From an uncultured Bacteroidales bacterium (GTDB taxonomy: Bacteria > Bacteroidota > Bacteroidia > Bacteroidales > Bacteroidaceae): 38,589 bases of DNA. Each line of letters starts with the position of its first letter. The first letter of the stretch is position 1. Below, one piece after another: positions 11,173 through 29,600 of the stretch. The DNA lies in contig CACWIN010000012.1 in assembly GCA_902760965.1 (NCBI GenBank), forward strand, positions 1 through 38,589. The letters are read 5' to 3'. Made by a program: the position numbers and the translations under genes. The notes below the pieces were generated by a model. That model saw only the letters and a program-made list of their open reading frames with translations. It did no database searches and was not told where the DNA came from.

Positions 11173-13266
11173 TTAGTTCAAAGTATACTCCGGAAGTTTG
11201 TCAAGAGCCGGAGTCTCATAGTTGGATATACGCAGACGGAAACTGCGCAACTCATCAAGAGTATGCTGAGGCTGCGTGCAGTCTGACGGGATATCCATCT
11301 TTGAGTACTGCTGGAAATAGAGCATCAGGGCGTCACGCCACCAGATGGCGTCCTTGGCCTGACGTATCAGTTTCTCATGAACCTGTCCGTAACGGTACGG
11401 GTCAACATATTTCTCTACGCTTTCCCAGGTCTTTATGAAGCCGCGTGCCTCCTGAATGCCTTCCTCAAAGGTGTAGCAGAGTTCGTTCCACAAGGTACGG
11501 CCGCTCTTCATCTTATAATCCCAAGGCAGATGGTGGAACCACAGGATAAGTTCCTTGGGACAGGTCTCAACATTGTCATAGAGTGAGCGCAACGGCTCAT
11601 GATACTGCGATACGGCATCGGTTCCTGTCTTGGATGTACGGTCAAATCCTATGCCGTCGGCTGCTGCCTTGTGATAGTATGCAGGCTCCCAGTCCGGGCG
11701 TGACGAGCGGTCCCAAGGTCCGGGGCCGTAGTGTCCGGCACCTGAGAAACAGTGGTGCAAGCCCATTGGCATCTCGTATTTGACGCATGCCTCACGTGAC
11801 TCCAGCAGCATCTTGGCCACAGGCTCCACAAACTTCTTATCGGCGGTAAAGGTCTGCTTTATCCACTCATCAATGATCTGCTCCGAGCTCAGGTCCGGAT
11901 TCCATGCCATACGGCCGAATGCATACCAGTTGGCCTGAGCCATGTGGTGTCCGCACCAGTTTATACTGTCACCAATATTGGTCACTCCGGCAATTGCGCT
12001 GTATTTTGTATTACCATGCACCTTGCCTAGAGTCTCAGCTGCCACGGTGCTACCCTTTCCATTCTGATATGTATCGCTGTCCAGGCACTCCTTCCACATG
12101 GGGTGCAGATAGACCATGTGGTTGCTGTGGCCAAGATACTCCTGAGTAATCTGCATCTCGGCCATCACATTGGTCTTTTCCATCTGACCGAACAGCGGGC
12201 TGAAAGGCTCACGCGGCTGGAAATCAACCGGACCGTTCTTGATCTGGATGATTACGTTGTCACGGAACTGTCCGTCCAGCGGCTTGAACTCCTCAACTGC
12301 CTGCTTGGCGCGGTCGGGTGACTCCGGAGCATAGACAAACGCCCTCCACATCACGATTCCGCCATAGGGTTTCAGGGCATCAGCAATCATATTGGCACCG
12401 TCGGCATGGGTGCGGCCGTAGTCCTGCGGACCCGACTGACCTTCGGAATTGGCCTTTACCAGGAATCCTCCAAAGTCAGGTATTATGCTGTAAATCTCGG
12501 CCACCTTATCGTTCCACCACTTGATTACATCCTTATCCAAAGGATCGCTGGTCTTGAGACCGGCCAGATGCTTGGGAGCGGCAAAGTTGAGTGACAGATA
12601 TACCTTGAGATTATACGGACGGAATATATCAGCCAGCACTTTAACCTTGTCAAGATACTCACGTGACAGCATACGCGCATCGGCATTGACATTGTTCAGA
12701 ACTGTTCCGTTTATACCGATTGATGCATTGGCACGTGCATACTCCTCATACTCAGGACGAATCTTACCTGGCAGCTCCTCCCACTTCCAGAGAGACTTAC
12801 CGGCATATCCGCGCTCAACAGTAAGATTGGGATTATCCCAGTGATTCAGGACACGATATCGGAACGCAGGTTTTTCTGTAACCAGGAACTTGTCCGCAAT
12901 TTTTATACCACAGTCAGCCAGTCTCTTAAGATAGAACACGGCATACAGTTTGGCTGCATCGGTATTGGCAGTAACTGCCACATGATTTCCGATACAGTTG
13001 ATGCTGAATCCCTCATCACCTAAGGAATTGTTATATATTCCGCTTGCATCAAAGCCTATGTCATTAACCCCAAGGGCATTAAGATCTATCCGCTTACTCT
13101 CTATCTTCCAAACGGCCACATCAGCAGGTCCGGATTTAACTGTTATATCACCCAGCCAAAGGTTATGGCCATCATTGTTCTCCGGCCTTGTCTGGCCCCC
13201 ACAGGACTGAATTCCCATAGCCAACAGGGCTACGGCCAGTCCAAGCATAAGTTTTCTTGTCTTCAT
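11173..13266 (-). CDS. GH67 alpha-glucuronidase, lipoprotein
   Basis: GH67 enzymes remove (4-O-methyl-)glucuronic acid from the end of xylo-oligosaccharides, completing glucuronoxylan breakdown. The 697-aa protein starts with a lipoprotein signal ending GIQSC-GGQ, so it is likely periplasmic or outer-membrane anchored. Family signatures are strong: RYRVLNHWDNPN, ANASIGINGTVLNNVNA, and GFLVKANSEGQSGP followed by YGRTHADGANM, where the catalytic acidic residues of the family cluster. WGGH-like CGHHMAQANWYAFGR and FHHLPWDY follow. The length agrees with the family at about 700. The gene sits 29 bases after the YigZ-family gene, separated by a heptad repeat, and has no promoter of its own that I can see. 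Confidence 0.94.
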   Translation of the reverse strand: MKTRKLMLGLAVALLAMGIQSCGGQTRPENNDGHNLWLGDITVKSGPADVAVWKIESKRIDLNALGVNDIGFDASGIYNNSLGDEGFSINCIGNHVAVTANTDAAKLYAVFYLKRLADCGIKIADKFLVTEKPAFRYRVLNHWDNPNLTVERGYAGKSLWKWEELPGKIRPEYEEYARANASIGINGTVLNNVNADARMLSREYLDKVKVLADIFRPYNLKVYLSLNFAAPKHLAGLKTSDPLDKDVIKWWNDKVAEIYSIIPDFGGFLVKANSEGQSGPQDYGRTHADGANMIADALKPYGGIVMWRAFVYAPESPDRAKQAVEEFKPLDGQFRDNVIIQIKNGPVDFQPREPFSPLFGQMEKTNVMAEMQITQEYLGHSNHMVYLHPMWKECLDSDTYQNGKGSTVAAETLGKVHGNTKYSAIAGVTNIGDSINWCGHHMAQANWYAFGRMAWNPDLSSEQIIDEWIKQTFTADKKFVEPVAKMLLESREACVKYEMPMGLHHCFSGAGHYGPGPWDRSSRPDWEPAYYHKAAADGIGFDRTSKTGTDAVSQYHEPLRSLYDNVETCPKELILWFHHLPWDYKMKSGRTLWNELCYTFEEGIQEARGFIKTWESVEKYVDPYRYGQVHEKLIRQAKDAIWWRDALMLYFQQYSKMDIPSDCTQPQHTLDELRSFRLRISNYETPALDKLPEYTLN

Positions 13267-13283
13267 ATAGTTAGTATTATTTT

Positions 13284-13316
13284 AATTTTCAATTCTCAAT
13301 TTTCAATTATCAATTC
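13284..13316. repeat. Heptanucleotide tandem repeat (NAATTGA), yigZ-GH67 junction
   Basis: On the minus strand the units GAATTGA, TAATTGA, AAATTGA, GAATTGA and AAATT run in tandem. The repeat fills the 29-base intergenic gap and runs into the last codons of the yigZ-family gene, encoding its ELIIEN tail. The same heptad family recurs at 22830-22863. Confidence 0.8.
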
Positions 13317-13949
13317 TTTTTTTGCCTGTGTCTCGGCAACAGCATTAAGCTTCGCTTCCAACTCATCAGCCACAGACAGCCTGGCCCTAAACGTCATCCT
13401 GCAGTCAAAACTGCCCTGCACTTTGTCACTGGAAAAACTGCCCCAATCCTGCGTACCCATTTGGACATCCATCTCCTTAGCCGCCTTCATGACAACATTC
13501 ATCATGTTGTATGTAAAAAGGACTGTGACATCACGTTCCACATAAGACGTAATAACCTCTGCTTTCTCTATCACCTGTGCAGCAGCCAAACGGTACGCCT
13601 CTGTAAGGCCCGATGTACCCAGCTTTACGCCTCCAAAATATCGGACCACAGCAATCAGTACATCACTAAGACCGGCACTGTTTATCTGCCCCAGGATGGG
13701 TTTACCGGCTGTCCCTGACGGTTCACCGTTATCATTGGCACGCCAGTCAGTACGCTCTGCACCAAGCATATATGCATAACAGATATGCCGTGCATCATAA
13801 TACTCTTTCTGGAGAGAGGCAATACGTTCCTTGACCTCATCGGCATTTGTAACATGCCAGATAAAAGAGATGAATCTGCTGCGCTGTTCTACGAACTGCG
13901 CCTGCGCTTCACCCCTTACGGTCAAGTATGAATCAATAGCCGTTTCCAT
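13296..13949 (-). CDS. yigZ: YigZ/IMPACT (UPF0029) family protein
   Basis: The YigZ and IMPACT families are linked to translation control, but the exact bacterial role is unsettled. The 217-aa protein shows the signature ARHICYAYMLG, NDNGEPSGTAGKPIL and VRYFGGVKLGTSGLTEAYR in the N-terminal half. A C-terminal ferredoxin-like domain (DUF1949-like) follows at about residues 140-205. ATG 13949 is chosen over an in-frame TTG two codons earlier because a TACCTTTG box ends only 10 bases upstream of the ATG. The message would then have a very short leader. The C-terminal residues are encoded by a tandem repeat. Confidence 0.92.
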   Translation of the reverse strand: METAIDSYLTVRGEAQAQFVEQRSRFISFIWHVTNADEVKERIASLQKEYYDARHICYAYMLGAERTDWRANDNGEPSGTAGKPILGQINSAGLSDVLIAVVRYFGGVKLGTSGLTEAYRLAAAQVIEKAEVITSYVERDVTVLFTYNMMNVVMKAAKEMDVQMGTQDWGSFSSDKVQGSFDCRMTFRARLSVADELEAKLNAVAETQAKKELIIEN

Positions 13950-13959
13950 GTTCAAAGTT

Positions 13960-13967
13960 CAAAGGTA
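13960..13967 (-). promoter_or_regulatory. -7 element of a nearly leaderless yigZ transcript
   Basis: TACCTTTG on the minus strand ends 10 bases before the ATG, so the transcript would begin about 3-6 bases before the start codon. The -33 region is poor. Confidence 0.5.
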
Positions 13968-14012
13968 ACTAAAAACAACGGAAACGGCTATAATACTGTT
14001 GATAGTTTGCTG

Positions 14013-15686
14013 TTAATTCAGCCTGAAATTAAGCGGAATAGTATATCTTACACGTACAGGTTTGCCACGTTGCTGACCTGGGGTCCATTTGGGCATAATT
14101 GAGATTAATCGTAAAGCCTCCTGATCAAGCGCAGGGTGAACTTTACTTACAACCTCAACATCAGCTATTGAGCCATTCTTTTCAACAGTAAATTGTACAA
14201 GAACTCGCCCCTGAATTCCATTATCTTGGCATATTCTTGGATATTTCAAATTACTTCTAATAAATTCAAGCAAAGCAGACGGTCCACCTGGGAATTCAGG
14301 TGCTTCTTCAACAACAAGGAAAGGAGCATCATTTCCATTCTCTTTTGCCCACTTTTCCCAATCAACATTTGTATTGTCAAATTCAACTGGTATTATCTGG
14401 CTCTTTTTAAATGGCTCTCCGTTACGTTTTCCGGGAATCCATTTTGGCATCCCTTGTACCAGACGTATAGCCTCCGCATCAAGAATAGAATCCACACTGC
14501 TTATTTTCTTGACATCACTAATAGAGCCATCGGTATCTATCATACAATGAACGTTAACATATACAGACTTTCCTCGTCCTGGAGACGGATACTTGTTATT
14601 TGCCTTAAGATATTCCTTGATAGCTGCTACACCTCCCGGAAACTCAGGGTTATCCACTCTTAAATGATGAATCTCAACTTTCATGTCATCAAAAAAGCAG
14701 ACATTACTTGAGCCCTTATCGGCCAAGTTAAGTACAATGGTCTGAGTCCTGGCGATTGAATTGTCCATTACATATTTGAATGAGAATTCTTGCCAATCCT
14801 TAGTTATTTCAAAAGCCTCAAAAGGATCAACCTTTAAACGGCTACCGGGTGTAGTATGGAACTCGGTAGATATCTTTTGCTTAGACACGCCCTTGGCTTT
14901 AAGACTAAAGTAAAGAGTGTCTCCAAGAGTGAATGGCTTTTCCAAATAAAGCATCAACTGTGTATCGCCGACCGACCTTGGGCTGCGGGTGGTAGTAATT
15001 GAAATACATTTATTGTTAACATCGGCAGGATCATCGGACACAAGCGGTGAAGCTACTTCCTTGTTTCCGCCTGTATATCTGGATACCAACGATGTAAATG
15101 ATGCAACCTGAATGTGCTTTCTGGCATCAGTAATGGCCGATTCCGATGAGCTTTCATTCTTATTAAGCCTGAAATTGATAGGAAGATTGTATAAAACTCT
15201 GACAGGCTTGCCAGCCTGGATTCCAGGTTTCCATTGTGGCATTTGTGAAATAATCCCCCTAGCCACTTCGTCCATCAACATCTCCAAGGACTTGGTAACC
15301 TTTACATCACTCAACGATCCGTCTGTCTCAACAATAAACGATACCATTACACGTCCCTCTATTCCATACTCCTCAGACAGATCGGGATAAGTCAAATGCT
15401 TGTTTATAAACTGCATCAAAGCGGCATCACCTCCGGGAAACTCCGGCATTTGGTCAACAACCTCATAAACGGTATCTTGAGTAACAACCACTTTATCTCT
15501 GATGTCCATATCAACCCAATCGCCATCAAGTACATCTTCTACTATATCATTATCATCTTCTATTATCTCAATGATTTCAACCTTATTAGCATTCTGATTG
15601 TTACTATCCTGCGCATTGGCAGACAAACCCAAAAACAGTGTTGACATAAGTGTCACACCACAAACAATGATGGAATTCCTAAGCAT
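14013..15686 (-). CDS. Exported protein with three TonB C-terminal domains and a jelly-roll-like insert
   Basis: TonB C-terminal domains bind the TonB box of outer-membrane transporters. This 557-aa protein carries three: residues about 80-174 (MPEFPGGDAALMQFINKHL, GIEGRVMVSFIVETDGSL, WKPGIQAGKPV), about 345-435 (NPEFPGGVAAIKEYL, WIPGKRNGEPF), and about 459-557 (APEFPGGPSALLEFIRSNL, WTPGQQRGKPVRVRY). Between the first and second copies a region of about 130 residues reads like a carbohydrate-binding jelly roll (TLGDTLYFSLKAKG, VCFFDDMKVEI). The N-terminus looks like a cleavable signal peptide (LFLGLSANA-QD) rather than the retained TonB anchor, and no proline-rich span or ExbB-contacting helix is seen. 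It is probably not an ordinary energy transducer. Its promoter is at 15782-15813. Confidence 0.85.
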   Translation of the reverse strand: MLRNSIIVCGVTLMSTLFLGLSANAQDSNNQNANKVEIIEIIEDDNDIVEDVLDGDWVDMDIRDKVVVTQDTVYEVVDQMPEFPGGDAALMQFINKHLTYPDLSEEYGIEGRVMVSFIVETDGSLSDVKVTKSLEMLMDEVARGIISQMPQWKPGIQAGKPVRVLYNLPINFRLNKNESSSESAITDARKHIQVASFTSLVSRYTGGNKEVASPLVSDDPADVNNKCISITTTRSPRSVGDTQLMLYLEKPFTLGDTLYFSLKAKGVSKQKISTEFHTTPGSRLKVDPFEAFEITKDWQEFSFKYVMDNSIARTQTIVLNLADKGSSNVCFFDDMKVEIHHLRVDNPEFPGGVAAIKEYLKANNKYPSPGRGKSVYVNVHCMIDTDGSISDVKKISSVDSILDAEAIRLVQGMPKWIPGKRNGEPFKKSQIIPVEFDNTNVDWEKWAKENGNDAPFLVVEEAPEFPGGPSALLEFIRSNLKYPRICQDNGIQGRVLVQFTVEKNGSIADVEVVSKVHPALDQEALRLISIMPKWTPGQQRGKPVRVRYTIPLNFRLN

Positions 15687-15781
15687 TATTCAGTTACGTT
15701 TTTGTAGTACCAGCCCCAAGTACCGTTGCAAAACAAAGAAAGTGTGGAGCCTGTTCAACACGTGAAACACTTTCATTTTCA

Positions 15782-15813
15782 CAAATATAAACACTTAATT
15801 ATCAAAAAACAAG
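15782..15813 (-). promoter_or_regulatory. Promoter of the triple TonB_C gene
   Basis: On the minus strand CTTG (15813-15810), 20 bases of spacing and TATATTTG (15789-15782) fit the consensus. It is located just after the C10 peptidase stop codon and leaves a leader of about 90 bases. Confidence 0.55.
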
Positions 15814-15828
15814 CGCTATGACAGATAA

Positions 15829-17808
15829 TTATTTTACACCGCTGTTCTGGAATGACGTCTTACTTACATTGGCAGGTCTGTTTATGACTGTTTTCAAGGC
15901 CGTGCAGTTGTGAAAGGCATAACCGCCTATCTTACTGGCGTTTTTTGGAAGTATAATGTTTGTCAGATTCTCGCAATCAGAGAACATATGGTCACCAATA
16001 ACATTGTCGGCAGTCAGATAAGATGCATAAAAACATCCGTCTGCACCTTTCAGCAAAAGCATGTTTTCAAGTTTATTCAATCCTCTGCTGATTATTACAT
16101 CCCAATCTTGATCAGTTATTTCGGACATATTATAATTGTAAGAGAAATGGCCCGATGCATCGCTCTGATATCCTTTCAATACTATTCCGTTTGCTTTTCG
16201 GACCAGATATTCGGTACCACCTTTTATTGTTGCGCCCGACAGGTCAAGCTCCATTAACGATCCGTACCATTTATCGGCCTGCATTTCGGATCCGGCACCA
16301 GCCATATTTCGCAAAAACTTAATGTCATCACCATCCAGTTGTCCTGTAACGGTTAACGATGTTACTTTTTGTCTGGCAGACTCATCAAGTATCGTTGAAA
16401 GAGTTCCATGTTCACTCACATCAACACTCATCTTGACCTCCTTTTCCAAAGGACGTATACCAGACAATATAGAGCCGAAAGGCAGTTGATTTCCGCTCAT
16501 GGATGGCACTATCAATGTCCTGTAATAGCCATTGCAATGCCCACCCCATCCTAAATTGAAATGCAGATAATCACCGTCATATCCATCACAAATAAAGATA
16601 TGTGATTCATCCGATACAACAACAGGGCGGGAACTGTCTATCTCAGAGTAGACTATAGCAAGAACATCAACATTTTTACTGTCTTTTATCATCCTGCATC
16701 CGGGACTGTAACCCCAATAATTAATCAAGGCCGATTTAAAAGAGCTCAAAGAACTGGCCGTACCGTAAGGACTTATTTCGGCCCCTAGACATCCTGCACA
16801 ATCCAGCATAAGTGATGCAATATCACGCTCGCTGCCAATCCACCTGACCGGATAATCGCTCAATTCAATCTCATAGCGTTTACCGGATTTGGTTGTAAGC
16901 ACTGTACTACCTTTTAACTCAACATCATTCTGATATAGACTTAAAATCTGGGCCAATGCCACAGGACCGCATCCTGCAATGCAACTGGAATCTTTGCCAT
17001 TGTATTTTTCCTTAGGAAACAGCATGTTATAAGGATAATCCTGATCATATGCAATGGAACCCAGTAGGGGCTTTACGCCATCAGCATTCATGGTAATATT
17101 TGACAACAGTTTAGAGGAATAAACCTCATTATGGTCACGCAAATGTTTTATCTGACGATTGTATTGTGCAAGAATTGCATAAATGGTATTGTCTCCATTG
17201 GTCTGATCACCATTCCACATGGAATTCCCCACTCCATATGCAAGAACCGGATTGTCCAGATATTTGCCACAACTTTCTGAAACTGTTATTACAAAGCACT
17301 TGTTCTTGTCATCCGAAAAAGCACATAGTGTCTCTGTGCTGTACTTGTGGGCAAGTTGGGGCGCCACCACCCCTTTTCCTGCAAGAAAATTGCGCGCAAT
17401 AATCCATTGGGAACCATATCTGGGATGTGGAGTAACATTTATTACCGCACTGTCCGATACCACCTTCTTTCCATCCACCAACAGGCTCATGGGATTGACT
17501 CTCAACTGTCCGGCGCCATTAATCCTGTAAACTACATTAATTCTTATATAGCTTTCACTCCCGTCCAGCTTACCCTTATCATAATCCAGCTTTTCAATTT
17601 CGCCACACTCCAAACTACCATCAAACGATCTGATAGACCAGTTTGTAGCTCTAAGCTCATATACCACCTGAATGCGGTTACCCTGAATGATCTCCCCCTC
17701 AGGAACAAACACCTTGAACGAGCGCAATCCCGATTGCTGATCCTTTTGCTGTGCCGATAATGAAATGCACAACAACACAAACAACATATTCAATACAATA
17801 CGTTTCAT
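15829..17808 (-). CDS. C10 family cysteine peptidase (streptopain-like) with BspA-type leucine-rich repeat
   Basis: C10 peptidases are secreted papain-fold proteases. The 659-aa product has a signal peptide (MKRIVLNMLFVLLCISLSA-QQ). The first 130 residues resemble a BatD-like beta domain (VFVPEGEIIQGNRIQVVYEL). The protease region begins with an RYGSQW/FLAGKG pro-region. CIAGCGPVALAQIL carries the likely catalytic Cys280 and SHIFICDGYDGDYLHFNLGW the His403, followed by GWGGHCNGYYR. The usual C-V-A-T-A after Cys is here C-G-P-V-A. Residues about 590-659 form a BspA/LRR_5 repeat (DCENLTNIILPKNASKIGGY). An in-frame ATG at 17823 overlaps the DUF5131 stop and is a possible alternative start. Confidence 0.87.
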   Translation of the reverse strand: MKRIVLNMLFVLLCISLSAQQKDQQSGLRSFKVFVPEGEIIQGNRIQVVYELRATNWSIRSFDGSLECGEIEKLDYDKGKLDGSESYIRINVVYRINGAGQLRVNPMSLLVDGKKVVSDSAVINVTPHPRYGSQWIIARNFLAGKGVVAPQLAHKYSTETLCAFSDDKNKCFVITVSESCGKYLDNPVLAYGVGNSMWNGDQTNGDNTIYAILAQYNRQIKHLRDHNEVYSSKLLSNITMNADGVKPLLGSIAYDQDYPYNMLFPKEKYNGKDSSCIAGCGPVALAQILSLYQNDVELKGSTVLTTKSGKRYEIELSDYPVRWIGSERDIASLMLDCAGCLGAEISPYGTASSLSSFKSALINYWGYSPGCRMIKDSKNVDVLAIVYSEIDSSRPVVVSDESHIFICDGYDGDYLHFNLGWGGHCNGYYRTLIVPSMSGNQLPFGSILSGIRPLEKEVKMSVDVSEHGTLSTILDESARQKVTSLTVTGQLDGDDIKFLRNMAGAGSEMQADKWYGSLMELDLSGATIKGGTEYLVRKANGIVLKGYQSDASGHFSYNYNMSEITDQDWDVIISRGLNKLENMLLLKGADGCFYASYLTADNVIGDHMFSDCENLTNIILPKNASKIGGYAFHNCTALKTVINRPANVSKTSFQNSGVK

Positions 17809-17812
17809 AGAG

Positions 17813-18637
17813 TCATATTTCATCAAACAGTTCTTCCTGACGATAGTCACTGTCCTTCCACTCAAACTTGACTTTTTCAGGCACATAGAACTGGTCTATT
17901 TTATAATCAATATTAGCCTTATGAGCTTGACTGAGTTGGAACGGACGTCGTACATAGTACTGTTTTCCGTCCTTTATGAACTTAGCGCCGGTCTGATGAA
18001 ACCTGAACGGCACATCCTTCTCAACGCATTGGCGGCGCAGGTCCAATATCCAGTCATAATTGCATGGACGTGCATCAACACCTGATTCACCGCCCACCGA
18101 TACCTCTTCAATGCTACTGTCCAGATATTGTGATATATCCACAGCCGATATCAACGGCGATACGATAATCGATTTGTGTTTAATAGGAAGTTCCTTAAAT
18201 ATGGGCAGACGGTAATCAGCCATCTGCTGATTCTCTACCGTACAGCCAACCAGCACGTTGTCATAGCCATCGGCCCAGTCATCAGGGATACACTCCATAA
18301 AACGGTCTATGCGCTTGGTAAAGAAATAGAACCACAGGTCACTGCGCACGCGCATCATCTGCCAGCACTCACGGCGCCACTCATCGGCATCCTTTAAAAG
18401 GAAATCCGATGTAAAGCAGGTAAACACCATCTTGCCCGGCTCAATTTTCCAACTGCGGTCACGCTTACGCTTTACCGGCAGGTTGAAAGCGGCGGTTTTA
18501 CGTGCCAGGTTACTGCCTATCTCACTCCCGTACATCTCATCCTGCCTGTAAACATAGCAATACTTGCACCCCGGACTGATTTTTGTACATCCGTGCCAAG
18601 GGTTCCAGTCTGCGTATATGCTCCAATGCTCTGCCAT
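17813..18637 (-). CDS. DUF5131 (phage Gp37/Gp68-like) radical-SAM-like protein
   Basis: Members share a Cys cluster and fold with radical SAM enzymes, but the reaction is unknown. The 274-aa protein shows WNPWHGCTKISPGCKYCY, with Cys17, Cys24 and Cys27 in CX6CX2C spacing. It continues with MVFTCFTSDFLLKDADEWR, FYFFTKRIDRF, VLVGCTVENQ, EEVSVGGESG and FRFHQTGAKF, all typical of the family. ATG 18637 is preferred over GTG 18643 because a TATCTTTG box at 18650-18643 overlaps that GTG. The message would be essentially leaderless. It is followed within 4 bases by the C10 peptidase gene, an unexpected operon partner. Confidence 0.85.
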   Translation of the reverse strand: MAEHWSIYADWNPWHGCTKISPGCKYCYVYRQDEMYGSEIGSNLARKTAAFNLPVKRKRDRSWKIEPGKMVFTCFTSDFLLKDADEWRRECWQMMRVRSDLWFYFFTKRIDRFMECIPDDWADGYDNVLVGCTVENQQMADYRLPIFKELPIKHKSIIVSPLISAVDISQYLDSSIEEVSVGGESGVDARPCNYDWILDLRRQCVEKDVPFRFHQTGAKFIKDGKQYYVRRPFQLSQAHKANIDYKIDQFYVPEKVKFEWKDSDYRQEELFDEI

Positions 18638-18642
18638 AAACA

Positions 18643-18650
18643 CAAAGATA
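18643..18650 (-). promoter_or_regulatory. -7 element of a leaderless DUF5131 transcript
   Basis: TATCTTTG on the minus strand ends only five bases before ATG 18637, so the transcript should start at or next to the start codon. No good -33 box is seen. Confidence 0.5.
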
Positions 18651-18676
18651 ATAATTGAAAACTGAAAAAGGCATAT

Positions 18677-18709
18677 TTTGATGGCAGCAGAAAATAATTA
18701 GTATATTTG
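18677..18709 (+). promoter_or_regulatory. Promoter of the 457-aa secreted protein gene
   Basis: TTTG (18677-18680), 21 bases of spacing and TATATTTG (18702-18709) match the consensus. It diverges from the DUF5131 promoter 27 bases away. AAAGGA, a possible ribosome binding site, lies at 18717-18722. Confidence 0.7.
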
Positions 18710-18732
18710 GATTTTTAAAGGACCATAATACA

Positions 18733-20106
18733 ATGATCGTTATGAGAAAAGCATTACTATCAATTGTTGCGTTGCTGACAGTATCGGCAACAACACTTAC
18801 TGCACAGACCGTGCAGATGGAGGCCCGCATGGGTAGCGAATCAACCATCAGCCCCCTTCCTAAGGAACTCACCAAAGACGGGAATGCATATATGGCAGTT
18901 GTTGATTTTGACCACAACGGAAAGAAATCAGAGATAGGCATATATGACAGTCCCGGACCACAGGGTATCAAGCTGTCAATTCCCATTCCGCTGCAGGAGT
19001 CATCGGACACCTATTACGAAAAAGCTGATGGTGTAATTGAGAATGTCAGGTTTAGCAAAAAATTCTATGACAAGTTTACAGACAAGGATACAGCTTACAC
19101 AATATCCATGATTCCTGAGATAGAGGCATTTATCCGAAAATTCTGGGGATACGGTGAGTCTTTCAGTCTAATAGAGTTTTTTGATGCCGACAGCATGAAG
19201 GCTTTGATGGGCAACAACCTAAGGGATGACCAGTTCTATCAGTTTGAGAGGTACGGCCGAAAGTATCCTTACGAATTTTGGGGCGTAAGCGATGACAGTT
19301 GCGTATGCCTGTACCATTACTTTAGTTATTATACCGAACTTGATTCCACAAATGCCATATGGACCAAAGACCTTGATTATTCTGTAAATAACGGTTATTA
19401 CAAGTATGAGTTGAATCTTGAAGGATTCTTATATCAGGACATTGACAACTCTTTCTACCCAACAACCCCCATCTATGCCAGCCAGAACATATTCAACGAT
19501 GATGACAATTGGGAATACCTGATTGCAGACATTGAACTTACACCCAGATATAGTGATGGCTGGATATGCGATGATTGGAAAATCCGAAGAAGAGTCGATC
19601 AGTCCCGCACATTCAAAGGCATTAAGATCATGAATGACAAAGGATCACAGTTGGCATATGTCACCTTACCTGATGAAGATAAAGAAAAGACCACTTATCT
19701 CAGGGTAAACTCTGTATCTGCACTGAATGGAAAGATATATATACTCACATCCGAGGATGTACAGAAAGGTGACGGCGATAGCTACAATTGGAAAACATAT
19801 GAAGGAATTTATGTCATCGAGCCCACGACAACTAAGGTACTATCCATATCACGTGCTCCATCAAGAATGGGAATAAGCCCGACTGTAATAGAGCAAGGAA
19901 GCCGATTGGATATTCATGTTTCAGAACCTACCGACAATGACAACGTAACTATCTCAAGCATGTCGGGCCAAATAATGGAATCATCACAGATTAACAATGA
20001 CAACAAGGCGTCATTCAATACCGGAGCAATGCCTAAAGGTGTATATAACGTCACTCTTCGTGGTGATGGAAATCCCACTGAAAACCAACGAATTATAATA
20101 AAATGA
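18733..20106 (+). CDS. Secreted protein of unknown function with type-IX-style C-terminal tag
   Basis: The 457-aa protein has a signal peptide (MRKALLSIVALLTVSATTLT-AQ). The body of about 350 residues is rich in Asp, Tyr and Trp (DDNWEYLIADIEL, DGWICDDWKIRR) and matches no family I recognise. The C-terminal 80 residues form a sorting-type beta domain (ITISSMSG-like VTISSMSGQIMESSQ, MPKGVYNVTLRGDG, ending RIIIK). AAAGGA at 18717 is suitably spaced for ATG 18733; ATG 18742 would also fit and gives a shorter n-region. The stop overlaps the next start as ATGA, so the MmcQ gene is coupled. Confidence 0.75.
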   Translation: MIVMRKALLSIVALLTVSATTLTAQTVQMEARMGSESTISPLPKELTKDGNAYMAVVDFDHNGKKSEIGIYDSPGPQGIKLSIPIPLQESSDTYYEKADGVIENVRFSKKFYDKFTDKDTAYTISMIPEIEAFIRKFWGYGESFSLIEFFDADSMKALMGNNLRDDQFYQFERYGRKYPYEFWGVSDDSCVCLYHYFSYYTELDSTNAIWTKDLDYSVNNGYYKYELNLEGFLYQDIDNSFYPTTPIYASQNIFNDDDNWEYLIADIELTPRYSDGWICDDWKIRRRVDQSRTFKGIKIMNDKGSQLAYVTLPDEDKEKTTYLRVNSVSALNGKIYILTSEDVQKGDGDSYNWKTYEGIYVIEPTTTKVLSISRAPSRMGISPTVIEQGSRLDIHVSEPTDNDNVTISSMSGQIMESSQINNDNKASFNTGAMPKGVYNVTLRGDGNPTENQRIIIK

Positions 20107-20450
20107 ATATAGAAGAGATCCGGGAATACTGTCTGAGCCTGCCGCTTGTAACAGAGGATATGCCGTTTGATGAAACGGTTGTGGTGTTCCGTTTAAAGGG
20201 AAAGATATTTGCCTGCATCACGCTCGATAAACCCGATATTGTTGTGCTCAAGTGTGACCCGGACAAGGCGCTTGAACTGCGTGAACGCTACACCGCAATA
20301 GAGGGCGCATTCCACTGGAACAAAAAATACTGGAACCAGATCCGCCTTGACGCCGATGTGGACCGTCCGCTCATAGAGGAACTGACCCGCCACGCCTACA
20401 ACGAAGTCAACGCCAAACTCCCCAAAAAAGATCGCGTAACCCCCGCATAA
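20103..20450 (+). CDS. MmcQ/YjbR family protein
   Basis: MmcQ/YjbR proteins have a CyaY-like fold and are often annotated as DNA-binding, with little functional proof. The 115-aa protein shows the family's layout: an N-terminal helix (IEEIREYCLSLPLVTED), MPFDETVVVFRLKGKIFACI, LKCDPDKALELRERY, HWNKKYWNQIRLD and the end VNAKLPKK. The length is typical. The start codon overlaps the stop of the secreted protein gene (ATGA). The gene ends against a perfect inverted-repeat pair at a convergent junction. Confidence 0.87.
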   Translation: MNIEEIREYCLSLPLVTEDMPFDETVVVFRLKGKIFACITLDKPDIVVLKCDPDKALELRERYTAIEGAFHWNKKYWNQIRLDADVDRPLIEELTRHAYNEVNAKLPKKDRVTPA

Positions 20451-20454
20451 AGTG

Positions 20455-20552
20455 AGGGGCACAAAGGGGACGGTTCTTTTTGTGCCCCTAATTAACGCTG
20501 TTGGAGGTGTTAAAAAGAGGGGCACAAAAAGAACCGTCCCCTTTGTGCCCCT
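20455..20552. repeat. Perfect 35-bp inverted-repeat pair, REP/BIME-like
   Basis: The bases at 20455-20489 and 20518-20552 are exact reverse complements, with a 28-base spacer. Each arm is also a hairpin on its own, because AGGGGCACAAA and TTTTGTGCCCCT flank a GGGGACGGTTCT core. It fills the gap between convergent genes ending at 20450 and 20562 and may serve as a two-way terminator. The core resembles REP sequences mobilised by RAYT (TnpA-REP) transposases; this is recalled, not searched. Confidence 0.85.
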
Positions 20553-20561
20553 ATTGAATCT

Positions 20562-21809
20562 TTAATCGAGTGAGTGGATAATCAATCCGGAGCGGAGTTT
20601 GGGCTCAAACCAAGTGGTCTTGGGAGGCATAATGTTGCCAGTATCCGCAATATCCATGAGTTGTTTCATAGAAACGGGATAGAGCGCCAGAGCCATTTTC
20701 ATCTCACCGCTGTCAACACGACGCTTAAGTTCACCCAGACCGCGTATGCCGCCCACAAAGTCAATCCTCTTGTCACGGCGCAGGTCCTTAATGCCCAGCA
20801 ACTGGTCCAGAATAAGATTTGATGAGATTGTTACATCCAGAACACCGATAGGATCGCTGTCGTCGAATGTACCCTTCTTGGCTGTCAGCTTATACCATTC
20901 GCCATCCAGATAGAGCGAGAAGGTATGCAGTTCTGACGGCTTGAATATCTCCTTACCCTTTTTCTCTACAACGAAGTTCTGGGTTAGTGCCTTGAGGAAC
21001 TGGTCCGATGACATACCGTTAAGGTCCTTAACCACGCGGTTGTAGTCAATGATGGTGAGCTGTGAAGCGGGGAAGCAAACAGCCATAAAGTAGTTGTACT
21101 CCTCATCGCCACGATGGTTGGGATTAAGACGGGCCTTCTCGGCACCCACCAGGGCAGCTGCTGCTGAGCGGTGGTGACCATCGGCAATATAGAGTGAAGG
21201 AATACCTGCGAACCTCTCAGTTACAGTCTTTATATCCTCATCCTTATCTATTATCCAGAGCTGATGACGGAAACCGTCACCCTGTGCTACGTAATCATAC
21301 TCAGGAGCACCCTTTACGTACTTGGCTACGAGCTCGTCAAGAACCTTATCATCGGGGTATGCAAAGAACACCGGCTCAATGTTGGCATTGTTAACGCGAA
21401 CATGTTTCATGCGGTCCTCCTCCTTATCGGCACGGGTCAGCTCATGCTTCTTGATGTTACCCTTAAGGTAATCCTCAACGTATGCGCAAACAACCAGACC
21501 GTATTGGGTCTTGCCGTTCATGGTCTGAGCGTAAATGTAGTACTGCTCCTTGCTGTCACGCTTAAGCCAGCCGTTATCCTGGAACTTCTTGAAGTTCTCG
21601 GCAGCCTTGGCATATACTCTGGGGTCTGTCTCCTCTGCTATGGGATCAAAGTCAATCTCGGGCTTAATGATGTGATAAAGAGACATCTCATTGCCTGCAG
21701 CCTCGGCACGTGCCTCCTCTGAGTTTAACACATCATAAGGACGGCTCTGAACCTTCTCAACAAGATCCTTAGGTGGACGTATTCCCTGAAATGGTTTTAC
21801 TATGGCCAT
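20562..21809 (-). CDS. DUF1015 family protein
   Basis: The reaction is unknown. The 415-aa protein opens with the family hallmark MAIVKPFQGIRPPKDLVEKV and RPYDVLNSEEARAEA, followed by MSLYHIIKPE. It also has HRSAAAALVGAEKARLNPNH (with SLYIADGHH before it), FMAVCFPASQLTIIDYNRVV, and a C-terminal GIRGLGELKRRVDSGEMKMA region. In Bacteroidales genomes it commonly follows serC-serA, which suggests a link to serine or phosphoserine metabolism. Here it lies 85 bases after serA, across a heptad tandem repeat. Its length is normal for the family. Confidence 0.92.
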   Translation of the reverse strand: MAIVKPFQGIRPPKDLVEKVQSRPYDVLNSEEARAEAAGNEMSLYHIIKPEIDFDPIAEETDPRVYAKAAENFKKFQDNGWLKRDSKEQYYIYAQTMNGKTQYGLVVCAYVEDYLKGNIKKHELTRADKEEDRMKHVRVNNANIEPVFFAYPDDKVLDELVAKYVKGAPEYDYVAQGDGFRHQLWIIDKDEDIKTVTERFAGIPSLYIADGHHRSAAAALVGAEKARLNPNHRGDEEYNYFMAVCFPASQLTIIDYNRVVKDLNGMSSDQFLKALTQNFVVEKKGKEIFKPSELHTFSLYLDGEWYKLTAKKGTFDDSDPIGVLDVTISSNLILDQLLGIKDLRRDKRIDFVGGIRGLGELKRRVDSGEMKMALALYPVSMKQLMDIADTGNIMPPKTTWFEPKLRSGLIIHSLD

Positions 21810-21818
21810 ATTATTACT

Positions 21819-21881
21819 TTGGCTATTGGCTGTTGGCTTTTGGCTAATAGCTAATAGCTAATGGCCAATGGCTAACAGCGA
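21819..21881. repeat. Nine-unit heptanucleotide tandem repeat between serA and the DUF1015 gene
   Basis: In the plus direction the units are TTGGCTA, TTGGCTG, TTGGCTT, TTGGCTA, ATAGCTA twice, ATGGCCA, ATGGCTA and ACAGCGA. The repeat occupies most of the 85-base gap within the serC-serA-DUF1015 operon and ends 9 bases before the DUF1015 start codon. Period 7 is the same as in the two AATTGA repeats of this window, but the sequence differs. Confidence 0.8.
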
Positions 21882-21894
21882 CGGCGCAGCCGTC

Positions 21895-22815
21895 TTATCT
21901 ATTTACCATAAACTTGGTGCAACCATCCTTGATGAAGCCCACAATCTGGTTAGCAGCTGCAATACCGGCGTTGATGTTAGCCTCGGCAGTCTGGGCACCC
22001 ATCTTTTTGGGAGTTGCAAAGTAACGACCTACAAACAGCTCCTCAAACTTGGTAGCTGCAGCAGGTGCTATATCTGATACAAACTTAAGGTCCTCACGCT
22101 CCTGCATAAGCTGGATGAGCTCATCCTCGTTGATGATCTCCTTACGGGCCGAGTTAACCAGAACACCACCCTTAGGCATCAGGCTTACAAGTTTCTTACC
22201 GATTGAGTTCTTGGTCTCATCGGTTGCAGGCAAGTGCAGTGAAATAAACTGGCAGGTCTTGTACATCTCTTCAACATTGTCAACGGCATGTACACCGGCA
22301 GCCTCGATAACCTCCTTGGGGCAGTAAGCATCAAAAGCATAAACCTCCATGCCAAAGCCCTTGGCTATGCGTGCTACATTGCGGCCTACGTTACCAAAAG
22401 CGTGGATACCCAGCTTCTTGCCCAGCAGTTCAATACCTGATGTACCATTGTAGAAATTACGTACGGCATAAACCATCAGACCGGCAACCAGCTCAGCAAC
22501 TGCATTGGCGTTCTGACCCGGAGTATTCATAACACATACTCCGTGTGCGGTGGCCGATGCCAGGTCAACATTGTCATAACCTGCACCTGCACGAACCACA
22601 ATCTTAAGCTGCTTGGCAGCATCGAACACCTCGGCGTCTATGATATCACTGCGAATGATGATAGCATCAACATCGGCAACAGCCTTAAGAAGAGCAGCCT
22701 TCTCTGTATATTTCTCAAGCAGAGCCAGTTCAAAACCAGCACCCTCAATTACCTCACGGATACCGTCAACAGCAACCTTAGCAAAAGGCTTTGACGTAGC
22801 AACTAAAACTTTCAT
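21895..22815 (-). CDS. serA: D-3-phosphoglycerate dehydrogenase, short type with catalytic Lys
   Basis: This enzyme oxidises 3-phosphoglycerate to 3-phosphohydroxypyruvate, the first step of serine synthesis. The 306-aa protein has the substrate domain (VVRAGAGYDNVDLASA) and a Rossmann motif (GKKLGIHAFGNVGRNVARIA). VNSARKEIINEDEL carries the active-site Arg. The catalytic His of the usual TPHxGAxT motif is replaced by Lys in FATPKKMGAQTAEA, which fits the short type IIIK enzymes described from Entamoeba and Bacteroides relatives. No ACT or ASB regulatory domain is present, so feedback by serine through such a domain is not expected. It lies 51 bases after serC. Confidence 0.94.
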   Translation of the reverse strand: MKVLVATSKPFAKVAVDGIREVIEGAGFELALLEKYTEKAALLKAVADVDAIIIRSDIIDAEVFDAAKQLKIVVRAGAGYDNVDLASATAHGVCVMNTPGQNANAVAELVAGLMVYAVRNFYNGTSGIELLGKKLGIHAFGNVGRNVARIAKGFGMEVYAFDAYCPKEVIEAAGVHAVDNVEEMYKTCQFISLHLPATDETKNSIGKKLVSLMPKGGVLVNSARKEIINEDELIQLMQEREDLKFVSDIAPAAATKFEELFVGRYFATPKKMGAQTAEANINAGIAAANQIVGFIKDGCTKFMVNR

Positions 22816-22829
22816 ATCTTGAATTTTTT

Positions 22830-22863
22830 AATTCTCAATTCTCAATTCTCAATTCTCAATTTT
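22830..22863. repeat. Heptanucleotide tandem repeat (ATTCTCA), serC-serA junction
   Basis: Four perfect ATTCTCA units (22831-22858) are flanked by partial units. On the minus strand this reads AATTGAG repeated. It fills most of the 51-base gap between serC and serA and ends 14 bases before the serA start. Confidence 0.85.
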
Positions 22864-22866
22864 AGT

Positions 22867-23931
22867 TTAATGTTTTGCCTCAAACTCCTTCATGCAAGCA
22901 ATCAGAGCATCAACACTCTCCATAGGCAGAGCGTTGTAGCAAGAAGCGCGGAAACCGCCAACTGAACGGTGGCCCTTGATACCAACCATACCCTTGCTCT
23001 TTGCAAAGCTCATGAACTCGTCCTCAAGCTCCTTGTACTCGGGCTGCATAACCCAGCAAATGTTCATATAAGAACGATCCTCATCCTTAGCGGTACCTAC
23101 AAACAGCTTGTTGCGGTCAATCTCACCATACAGCTTGGCTGCACGAGCCTCAGCACGCTTAGCCATCTCCTTTACACCACCCTGAGCCTTGAGCCAACGG
23201 AGTGACTCCAGAGCTGAGTAGATTGTGAATGTAGGAGGTGTATTGAACATAGAACCGTTGTCAATATGAGTCTGATAGTTCAGCATTGTGGGGATATAAC
23301 GGTCAACCTTGCCAAGAGCATCGTTCTTTACGATAACGAAAGCCATACCTGAGGGAGCCAGGTTTTTCTGGGCACCACCATAAATGCAGTTATACTTGCT
23401 AACATCGATAGGACGTGAGAAAATATCTGATGACATATCAGAGATCAATGGAACAGGGCTGTCCAGGTCCTTGCGGATCTCAGTACCGTAGATGGTATTG
23501 TTTGTAGTAAAGTGGAAATAATCTGCATCGGCAGGGATTACATAATCCTTGGGGATGTAGGTATAAGTTGACTCGGCCGATGAAGCAACCTCAACAACCT
23601 CACCAAAAGCCTTGGCCTCCTTCATGGCCTTCTTGGCCCATACACCGGTGTTCAGATAAGCGGCCTTCTTATTAAGGAAGTTATAAGGAACGCGGCAGAA
23701 CTCCATGCTGGCACCACCGGCCAGGAAAAGTACTGAATAACCCTCAGGAATATCCAGAATCTCCTTGAAGAGAGCCTCAGCCTCATCAACAACGGGCTTG
23801 AACTCACTTGAACGGTGACTGATAGAGAGAATAGAAATGCCTGTACCGGCAAAATCATAGACAGCCTGAGCTGATTTCTCAATTACCTCCTGCGGAAGAA
23901 CAGCAGGACCTGCGCAAAAATTATGCTTCAT
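22867..23931 (-). CDS. serC: Phosphoserine aminotransferase
   Basis: This PLP enzyme converts 3-phosphohydroxypyruvate and glutamate to phosphoserine, and also serves pyridoxine synthesis. The 354-aa product has the classical start [48 protein letters not shown], and [19 protein letters not shown] with the PLP-binding Lys. It ends with [17 protein letters not shown], as expected for SerC. The length is normal. It is the first gene of the serC-serA-DUF1015 operon, with a well-formed promoter 36 bases upstream. Confidence 0.97.
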
Positions 23932-26453: not shown

Positions 26454-26612
26454 TGTGGCGGCCGTTTTTGAAAAAATCACATTAAAGTTTTTTTTAAATC
26501 TTCGCGTATAGTAATAACATTATATGAGAGGACTATTCTATGGGGGTTGACCGCCACCCTAATTTTTGTCATGATGTTGGCATCATCATGTACCAAGAGC
26601 GGTGATATTAAT

Positions 26613-29600
26613 ATGAAACAAACTACTGACATTTTGCGAGGGCGGCCGTGGCTATGGCTACTGGTAGTGCTTTTCGTGTGGCTGTTGCCTCAGCAGGCGA
26701 CAGCAAGGGAAAGGTATCCTGAGATGACCAGTCTCTATCAGGTTATGCTCAACGGTTCCAACAAAGTCCGTATTCAAGCACCAGCCTACGACAAAAAAGA
26801 CAACGACTACTTTGTATACCATGGCTATCTGAAGGCCAAATGGAAGGACGAAAAAAAGGTAGACCATGAGGCTACTGTGTTATATTGGTCGATGGACGAA
26901 GGATATGACGCAGATAATGGTGGAAGTAAATACGACAACGACAATACTGCCGTACACTTCAAGTTCAAGACTGAAATTGGCGGCAGCGTCGACGTCAAGC
27001 AAGGCAATTCGTCGAGTACCTTCAAGATAACCAAAGACGACGGTGAGAAGCGCGAACTGCTCTATGAGAATTCTGACGACTATAGCTACGAATTCTCTGC
27101 CGTTTGGACCTTCCCTTACGAAATGTATGGTTGCGATGTTACCTTTGTTTGGGACGTAGAGGTTGAATATACTCATATATTTGTCTTTAACAAAGCGTTC
27201 AAGTTAGGCTTAAAAGACGTGAACATCTCTTTGCCAGAAGCACCGATTGTCGTAAATCCACAGATGTCGCTGGGAATGATGTCTTTTACAAAGCCCGGCA
27301 TGTTGGAAGTGCCCTGGTTTGTGGCCTCCGACAGAGTGACTTCAGCAAAGTATGAGTATGTTGATCACAACGATAATACGGTAAGTGTACCATTGCAGTC
27401 AGGCATCAGCAACGGCACCATCTATCTGGATGCCAGCGTGCCTCACAAGAATTTGCACGTCATTGTAGATTACATTGACAGAGACAATAATCCGATTACG
27501 GCAGTCACGTCAGATGGGCAGACGCAACCGGTCATTCACATACCCATGAGTCTTACTGCCAAGCCGTTGGGCGACCGCAAGGCATCGGTGCAGTTGGACT
27601 GGCACATCGCTTATACCGAATATGAAGATATCTCCAGTTCCGACTTCTTTGAGATACAACGCTCACTGACGGGTAAGGAGGCAGACTTTGAGACAATTTT
27701 TTCTGAGCCTTTCAGTCTGAGTCAGAGTAACTACACCTTTATTGACAGTACTCTGATTGATGCCATTGGTGATAAACTACTGAAAGACGGCACCCTCGAC
27801 AGCCTGACCTACCGTGTGCGCCGCACGATGACGCAGGCATGGGGCTGGGGCCACAGCGGTGCACCGAGTGTCCGTTGCGTTGTCGACGGCATCCACTTGA
27901 TGCATATTGCCACCTATTCTGCCGAATGGGAAGACACGCTTGCCTACACCGCTCGTGTCTCTTGGAAGTATGCCGATGAGTACAACATGGTATGGGACAA
28001 TCGTGCCAATATGATGATGCGCGTCACGATGCTTAATCAAAGCGGGGATACCGTGAACATCCAGAACATAGAAATCTCTCCAGAGGAACGTGAGCAGCGC
28101 TACAAGGTGATTGATCTCTCCCGCACGTGCGTTAGCTATAAAGTAGATTTGTATATCGATCGCCGTACTTCCCCCATCCCGACATTCGATGAAATAAAGC
28201 CCTACTGGTTTCCCATCCGCAACGCTAATGACTGGAAAAACTTCCTTAACAAGGTGAAAGCCGCCGAGGGTAAGTACGACGTGAACGCCCGTCTATATGC
28301 CGACATCAGTATTGAAAACAGCGTTGGATTGTACGAGAGTTATCCATACCGTGGTACATTCGACGGCAACGGTCATACGTTGAATGTTAACATTTCTGGT
28401 GGTAACTTGAATAATCTTGGCATATTCCGCTTTGTTGATAATGCCACATTCCGCAACCTGCATACAACAGGAACCATCAACACCAGCCAAAAGTATGCAG
28501 GAAGCCTTATTGGCCGTATCAGAAACGGCCATTCGGTTGTCATTGAGGGCTGCCGCTCTTCAGTCACGCTCAACAACTCCATTAATGGCGATGCCACTAT
28601 GGGCGGCTTTTTGGGAATTGTAGGAGATAATGCCAGTGTTATGTTCCGTAACTGTAAGTTTGACGGCAGTTTTAAGGGAGATAATTGTAGTCACGTCAGC
28701 GGTTTCATTGGCTGTTGCTTAGGTAACTCTTCGGCAACCATCGATAACTGTCTATTCGCTCCCGACCATATCACAACAAGTAGCGAAAACTGCTCAACGT
28801 GGGCACGCAAATACGACAGTGCTACACTGACCGTCATCAACAGCTATGCCACCCGGGAATATACGCAGGGCGACGGCACTGCGGAAAACCCCTACCGCAT
28901 CAATTCTGCAGGTGACTGGAATGCGCTCAGGGATGCTGTGGAAGCAGCCAAGAACAACAGTTATTTGTATGCTCGCCTTGAGGCCGACATCACCGTCAGC
29001 GATTATGTAGGAAGAGGTCATGCTGCTGTATTCCGTGGCACGTTCGACGGCAACGGCCATACGCTGAATGTCGATATCAATAGAACCACCGATACTGGCG
29101 CTGCAGCCCCCTTCGCTTATGCAGGCGATTGTACCATCAAGAACCTGCGCGTGACGGGCAAAGTAAATGGCAATGGCAATCATGCCGCAGGACTGATTGG
29201 CGGTGCTCAACCTGGCACCCCCCACATCAACCTTGACCGTGTGTGGGTATCTACAGATGTGACTACGGCGGGTACCCATGTCGGCGGTATCATCGGATAT
29301 TCCAATAATGGAATCATCAAAATGACCGACTGCCTTTATGACGGCAAGCCGAGCACTCGCCCAGATAACGAAGCACATGATACGTTTATGGGAACCATGA
29401 TTGGCTGGGGCAACGAAAACACCCAATGGACGCTCGTCCGTACATACGACCATGGTAACTTGGGCAATGCTTATTGGCGCTTCTATGGTATATGGTGGAA
29501 CAGTCCTGACTGGCATTCTTGGGGAACCAATGATCGTAGTTTTACCGTTACCCAGCACGGTTGGGACAACGTGAATTATTACAACAAGACCGACCAGACC

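Follow-up and report, generated by a model that had tools for sequence, protein, structure and literature searches.

Known heptamer repeats and the arrays of the window

Heptamer repeats have long been noted in bacteria, and their origin is not agreed upon. The cyanobacterial short tandemly repeated repetitive (STRR) sequences have a period of 7 bases, are intergenic, and vary in unit number; to our knowledge, they have neither a stop-codon anchor nor a terminator core. Rickettsia palindromic elements are comparable short, dispersed, non-coding elements. Here, we describe three heptamer arrays in a 38,589-nucleotide (nt) stretch of DNA, called the window below, from an uncultured Bacteroidales bacterium of the family Bacteroidaceae. 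The window is contig CACWIN010000012.1 (C12) of assembly GCA_902760965.1 (2.32 Mb, 93 contigs, 81 percent complete). These arrays share with STRR sequences the period, the intergenic site, and the variable unit number, and, as in long simple sequence repeats, the tandem heptamers vary among relatives. The likeness to heptamer repeats of other bacteria that an earlier note on this DNA had pointed out was upheld.

Among described repeats, the TAACTGA repeat (MacGregor 2015, PMC4679880) comes closest. As far as the available part of that account goes, both sets of repeats are mostly intergenic heptamer arrays with stops in the forward direction and an open frame in the reverse one. TAACTGA repeats also overlap the ends of open reading frames (ORFs) by up to 18 nt, have mostly reversed copies inside ORFs, and differ between related strains mostly by 7-nt steps. 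However, the unit here is AATTGAN or the pair TTRGCTN/AGCYAAN; the anchor reported there for the main genome is the following start codon, in the forward direction and at a short distance, which is not what we found; and a composite element, in which inverted arrays enclose a predicted terminator, was seen here only, and not in the available part of that account. Repetitive extragenic palindromic (REP) and miniature inverted-repeat transposable element (MITE)-like elements (PMC3733652; RU elements, PMC2759123) are likewise described, in the parts available, as short, dispersed, non-coding, and often near gene ends, with some inside genes and with numbers that vary between related genomes. The elements described here differ from them in that their ends are tandem heptamer arrays and in that a search for PF01797 found no linked transposase. 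Our literature search returned the TAACTGA paper and general REP/repeat work, and no publication on AATTGAG or TAGCCAA arrays.

Two families of arrays were distinguished. Family A is made of AATTGAN units, and family B of AGCYAAN units and their complement (TTRGCTN) in inverted arrangement. Based on the placement of family A and on comparisons with related genomes, we lean toward the view that the arrays are the ends or solo remnants of short, non-coding, MITE-like interspersed elements that lodge behind stop codons.

Placement of the arrays at stop codons

The arrays were surveyed in 838 kb of the same genome (the window and 40 further stretches) at a score of at least 10. The genes were called with our own ORF script, so single gene boundaries may be off. 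Fifty-one period-7 arrays were found, 49 of them belonging to family A or B and 46 being intergenic. In such a scan, as the earlier note had proposed it, the arrays were spread through the genome and not randomly placed. In the 20 stretches that had not been picked for arrays (400 kb), there were 13 arrays with a score of at least 14 at period 7, 6 at period 6, and 4 at period 12, and 0 to 2 at each remaining period between 4 and 11. No array at any period from 2 to 15 was present in one Markov replicate of these stretches and the window; the real sequence had 13 at period 14, a multiple of 7.

The placement of family A was examined with the arrays of at least three exact units in genomes G000, G029, and G033 (n = 52). 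The nearest gene boundary was a stop codon in sense orientation in 35 cases; the rest lay antisense to a stop codon (4), before a start codon (4), antisense to a start codon (5), or inside a gene in antisense orientation (4). Among the sense arrays in gaps of at least 80 nt, 26/28 were located between −22 and +6 nt from the stop codon, against 5.4 expected, and none of 20,000 uniform placements was as extreme; 21/28 lay within −3 to +6 nt. At offsets −6, −13, and −20, the gene was ended by the array's own TGA, which follows by construction once a family A array overlaps a gene end. At offsets −2 and −1, the array overlapped the stop codon, as in TAATTGA. Because 14 of the 20 stretches from G029 and G033 were picked for a listed array, array densities from them are biased; the positions within gaps should suffer far less from this.

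The arrays had initially been thought to be tied to the following start codon. In codirectional gaps, 14/15 sense family A arrays were at the stop codon, and their distance to the following start ranged from −1 to 360 nt. Start-codon anchoring of family A was rejected on account of this spread; what stays constant is the position relative to the upstream stop codon. In a sample mostly chosen for arrays, 26/51 listed gaps with family A were convergent and thus had no following start codon. The gaps with family A were 6/15 convergent, 5/63 codirectional, and 1/18 divergent in G029; 7/15, 8/58, and 1/17, respectively, in G033; and 3/58, 7/274, and 0/71, respectively, in G000. Family B was placed more loosely, a stop codon being the nearest boundary in 14/34 cases with TTRGCT in sense orientation and in 10/34 with the reverse. 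Its pairs in codirectional gaps had a single order in 13/13 cases.

Filled and empty sites and the composite element

The arrays and genes concerned are listed below. The gene names proposed from the letters alone agree with the Pfam matches.

11173..13266, minus strand: GH67 gene, downstream of array 1 (Pfam)
13280..13315, minus strand: array 1, family A (AATTGAN), about 5 units, overlapping the yigZ 3' end
13296..13949, minus strand: yigZ-type gene (UPF0029), upstream of array 1 (Pfam)
20562..21809, minus strand: DUF1015 gene, downstream of array 2 (Pfam)
21819..21881, minus strand: array 2, family B, inverted heptamer arrays, predicted hairpin
21880..21894, minus strand: small hairpin GACGGCTGCGCCGTC, directly 3' of the serA stop codon, where the inserted stretch begins
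21895..22815, minus strand: serA-type gene (2-hydroxyacid dehydrogenase), between arrays 2 and 3 (Pfam)
22830..22861, minus strand: array 3, family A (AATTGAG), 4.6 units, beginning 5 nt past the serC stop codon
22867..23931, minus strand: serC-type gene (class-V aminotransferase), upstream of array 3 (Pfam)

The lag-7 scores of arrays 1, 2, and 3 were 17, 26, and 25, respectively, and the best score in 200 order-2 Markov versions of the window was 12, below that of the weakest real array. Array 2 was detected at 21819-21875 and followed by eye to 21881. The arrays do end 9 to 17 bases before the next start codon, as had been noticed (13 to 17 for array 1, 9 for array 2, and 14 for array 3). 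The statement that all three lie in gaps holds for arrays 2 and 3; about 20 nt of array 1 is inside yigZ, whose stop codon (13296-13298) is supplied by the array. As to the units read on the coding strand, AATTGAN is common to arrays 1 and 3, whereas array 2, with TTAGCYA-type units followed by AGCYAAN-type units, is an inverted pair of another family. Given these two families, a common origin of all three was not supported. The whole array 2 gap has a predicted fold of −32.7 kcal/mol (z −6.2). When positions 12900-23400 of the window and nine element loci were compared with RNA families, only a tRNA reached the gathering score.

A serC-serA-DUF1015 query matched all 37 genomes of the genus, and the loci of 29 relatives were compared. 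At serA-DUF1015, 17 relatives had a bare TAATG overlap, 3 another short gap, 4 a B-type element, and 4 another longer gap; 1 was unresolved. Behind the same serA stop codon, these four relatives carry B-type elements that differ, two of them (L105 and L106) with hexamer units. On the tree, the window adjoins L107 (99/95), which has TAATG and no family B array. At serC-serA, at least two family A units were found in 7/30 rows, all within one clade of 15, with varying unit number; L115, L116, and L118 had no array and 11 nt from stop to start, and L120 and L121 had a single unit at the serC stop codon. The fewest changes on the tree were four for family A and four for family B. The yigZ-GH67 junction was TGATATG, with one base from stop to start, in 5/28 relatives with the gene (L314, L323, L325, L327, and L329), and the sister species L312 had array 1 with one unit more than the window. 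According to these gap comparisons, each window array therefore occupies a site where the genes overlap or are closely spaced in some relatives.

In array-rich species, family A arrays often form inverted pairs that face inward (16/16 pairs in the genus and 15/16 outside it). Twenty-four composite elements, all selected for a GTCGCG-like core, were collected, and 22 were aligned after two odd ones were dropped; two of the aligned rows are nearly identical. The order was (AATTGAN)n, a hairpin with a T run, AATGTCGCGGG, ACGCAGGT, and (NTCAATT)n. The hairpin stem was variable with compensatory changes, the two boxes were nearly invariant, and the flanking arrays paired in the predicted consensus fold. 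This form likely carries a two-way transcription terminator, as judged from the predicted structure. One composite element used as a query found many more copies at other loci of the genus. Inverted ends, dispersed copies, and empty sites in relatives, all of them features of MITE-like elements, were thus observed.

A convergent gap was matched in 36/37 genomes and compared in 30 loci. It was shorter than 100 nt in 18/30 loci, mostly with one hairpin by eye. In 5/30 loci (G030, G034, G003, G033, and G028), the composite element replaced, by sequence, the hairpin of the relatives. Elsewhere, G029 had a GGGGACGG palindrome, G000 a family B element beside the hairpin, and G036 a short family A array beside the hairpin; longer inserts were present in two loci, and anchoring failed in two more. 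In G034, the composite core between the inverted arrays was itself inverted in L342 compared with L341, L343, L344, and L345, as if the arrays had recombined.

Spread and candidate explanations

Family A (2 mismatches) was found in 23/37 genomes of the genus, with 1 to 327 overlapping matches each, and family B (3 mismatches) in 16/37, by far most in G000; the reversed control of the B search gave one match each in a few genomes. The five genomes sampled from other genera of this taxonomic family had no family A match. In the order, family A occurred in 42/393 genomes and 36/207 genera. By our own count, a reversed control heptamer formed arrays in at least 22/393 genomes of the order, so that a uniqueness of AATTGAG as such was not supported. 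Arrays of the control (GAGTTAA type) were many in other genera (e.g., G403 and G180), and lineages therefore favor different heptamers. The exact 25-base family A array was present in at least 117 stretches of the named collection, and exact AATTGAG arrays in at least 13 named phyla (80 loci examined), including the complete genome of Desulfonema magnum; most of the other named loci are metagenome bins, for which wrong binning is possible. Viral contigs had 26 stretches with family A, 52 with TAACTGA, and 4 with one scrambled heptamer.

Inside genes, family A arrays run antisense, the direction without stops. In the same genome as the window, NSQFSIL-type segments were found at several places in a receptor-like protein, of TonB-receptor type by eye and without a Pfam match at 1e-5, and in a neighboring dicarboxylate symporter (PF00375). 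At two receptor sites, the lengths of relatives differed by 2 to 11 residues. Segments of this kind were present in 16 open frames of the 80 named loci; Bacteroidota, Chloroflexota, and Fibrobacterota are the phyla concerned. Pfam was run on 10 of the 16; 8 matched a family and 2 had no match. The segment was inside or between domains in seven (aminomethyltransferase, AcrB type, radical-SAM protein, TPP oxidoreductase, carbamoyl-phosphate synthase, phosphatidylserine decarboxylase, and glycosyltransferase) and behind the matched part in WbqC.

If the arrays belong to MITE-like elements, family A elements would have (AATTGAN)n ends, and family B elements would have inverted TTRGCTN/AGCYAAN arrays. 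A copying, insertion, or exchange process would place them behind stop codons, and slippage would later alter the unit number. Tolerance of the arrays may come from the 7-base unit: with TGA in it, every frame of the sense direction meets a stop within 21 bases, while the antisense strand stays open and codes NSQFSIL. Between two genes of an operon, as at serC-serA, the array would then act mostly as a neutral spacer; as part of a composite element, it would bring the predicted two-way terminator. Several observations weigh against this explanation. The sense bias behind stop codons is not accounted for by tolerance alone, and it is weaker outside the genus, where arrays in sense orientation behind a stop were 22/60 in Bacteroidota and 21/44 in others (simple ORF calls). 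No mobilizing enzyme was found in a search restricted to PF01797 in incomplete genomes, and PF01797 does not track family A, being absent from the A-rich G002, G028, and G034. Inspection by eye showed no clean target-site duplication at the serC-serA-DUF1015 loci or the convergent gap. In the latter, the hairpin of the relatives is missing altogether and not just interrupted, so exchange fits better than simple insertion. The C-terminal residues of yigZ in relatives resemble the array-coded ones, so the array could have grown in place, and another receptor site is equal in length with and without array-like sequence, save for one row with an unrelated insert.

A bolder proposal, which we regard as tentative and rather doubtful, is a stop-codon-targeted, non-autonomous family across at least 13 phyla that swaps terminator cassettes and seeds in-frame NSQFSIL inserts through an undescribed mechanism recognizing AATTGAN arrays. 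Exchange of terminator cassettes, if it occurs, would be a route to rewiring gene ends, and in-frame entry of antisense arrays into genes, if it occurs, would be a source of new protein segments. The genus, with 0 to 327 family A matches per genome and with filled next to empty sites, makes both origin and effect open to testing.

It is unlikely, in our judgment, that the AATTGAN array is a functional RNA site, that is, a 3'-end or intercistronic site whose 7-base units would each be read by a protein (S1, cold-shock, or RRM type) acting on transcript ends or translation. The sense orientation and stop-codon placement of family A would suit such a site, as would the predicted lack of structure in the serC-serA array; S1, Csp, or Csr binding was suggested for TAACTGA repeats in the available part of that account (PMC4679880). 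The hexamer is also far more constant than the seventh base: among 284 inner units of the genus, the seventh base changed from G to A in 65 and position 5 in none, though TAA would still be a stop, but the units were collected with at most one mismatch to AATTGA, a rule that favors a fixed hexamer. Moreover, arrays occupy few gaps, relatives lack them at the same sites, and 14/37 genomes of the genus have no family A match. The role in translation or mRNA processing put forward in the earlier note may hold, but several relatives manage without arrays at these sites. RbpB was considered as a candidate reader of the repeat; the available part of PMC11697453 gives a 41-nt motif without the heptamer.

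Less likely still are pure slippage repeats, of the STRR or long simple sequence repeat kind, that would arise on the spot where a unit like TAATTGA occurs by chance at a stop codon. The one-unit difference between sister species, the lone unit at the serC stop codon in L120 and L121, the array-like C-terminal codons at yigZ, and the other heptamers that form arrays in other genera (the reversed control) are what slippage would give. It accounts poorly for the dominance of one unit in a genome, for a composite element that recurs at many loci with fixed inward pairing, and for the different B-type elements that separate lineages have behind the same stop codon.

Family B elements (e.g., L079, L081, L084, and L096 of G000) are mosaic in structure, combining a GTAG-tagged palindrome with a CAATACGATT...GGGCC/GGCCC module and a CCATCCGGTGCG box. 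The palindrome, found at 22 places in the same genome as the window (at most 3 mismatches), is a module of many family B elements and was not seen in family A elements. According to the available part of PMC3733652, the GTAG tag marks one REP superfamily. That the arrays are REP elements moved by REP-associated tyrosine transposases (RAYTs) of the same genome is very improbable: this genome has three Y1_Tnp genes, and the tagged palindrome is frequent in family B elements, but RAYT-linked REPs flank the RAYT gene, whereas these three genes have a different palindrome (GGGGACGGTTC type) at their flanks and 3/3 loci have no period-7 array, one having a hexamer-type B-like stretch behind a neighboring gene, and Y1_Tnp counts do not follow family A counts over the 37 genomes. 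After inspection of the three loci and these counts, a RAYT/REP origin was left unsupported.

Two further features of the window were noted. A strong GGGGACGGTTC-type palindrome, of the kind that also flanks the RAYT-type genes of this genome, lies at 20452-20556 in the convergent gap behind the DUF1015 gene. On the plus strand, a single open frame (about 3,670 codons) spans 26571-37592; it has a Laminin_G_3 match and a weak carboxypeptidase-regulatory-like one and probably encodes a large surface protein.

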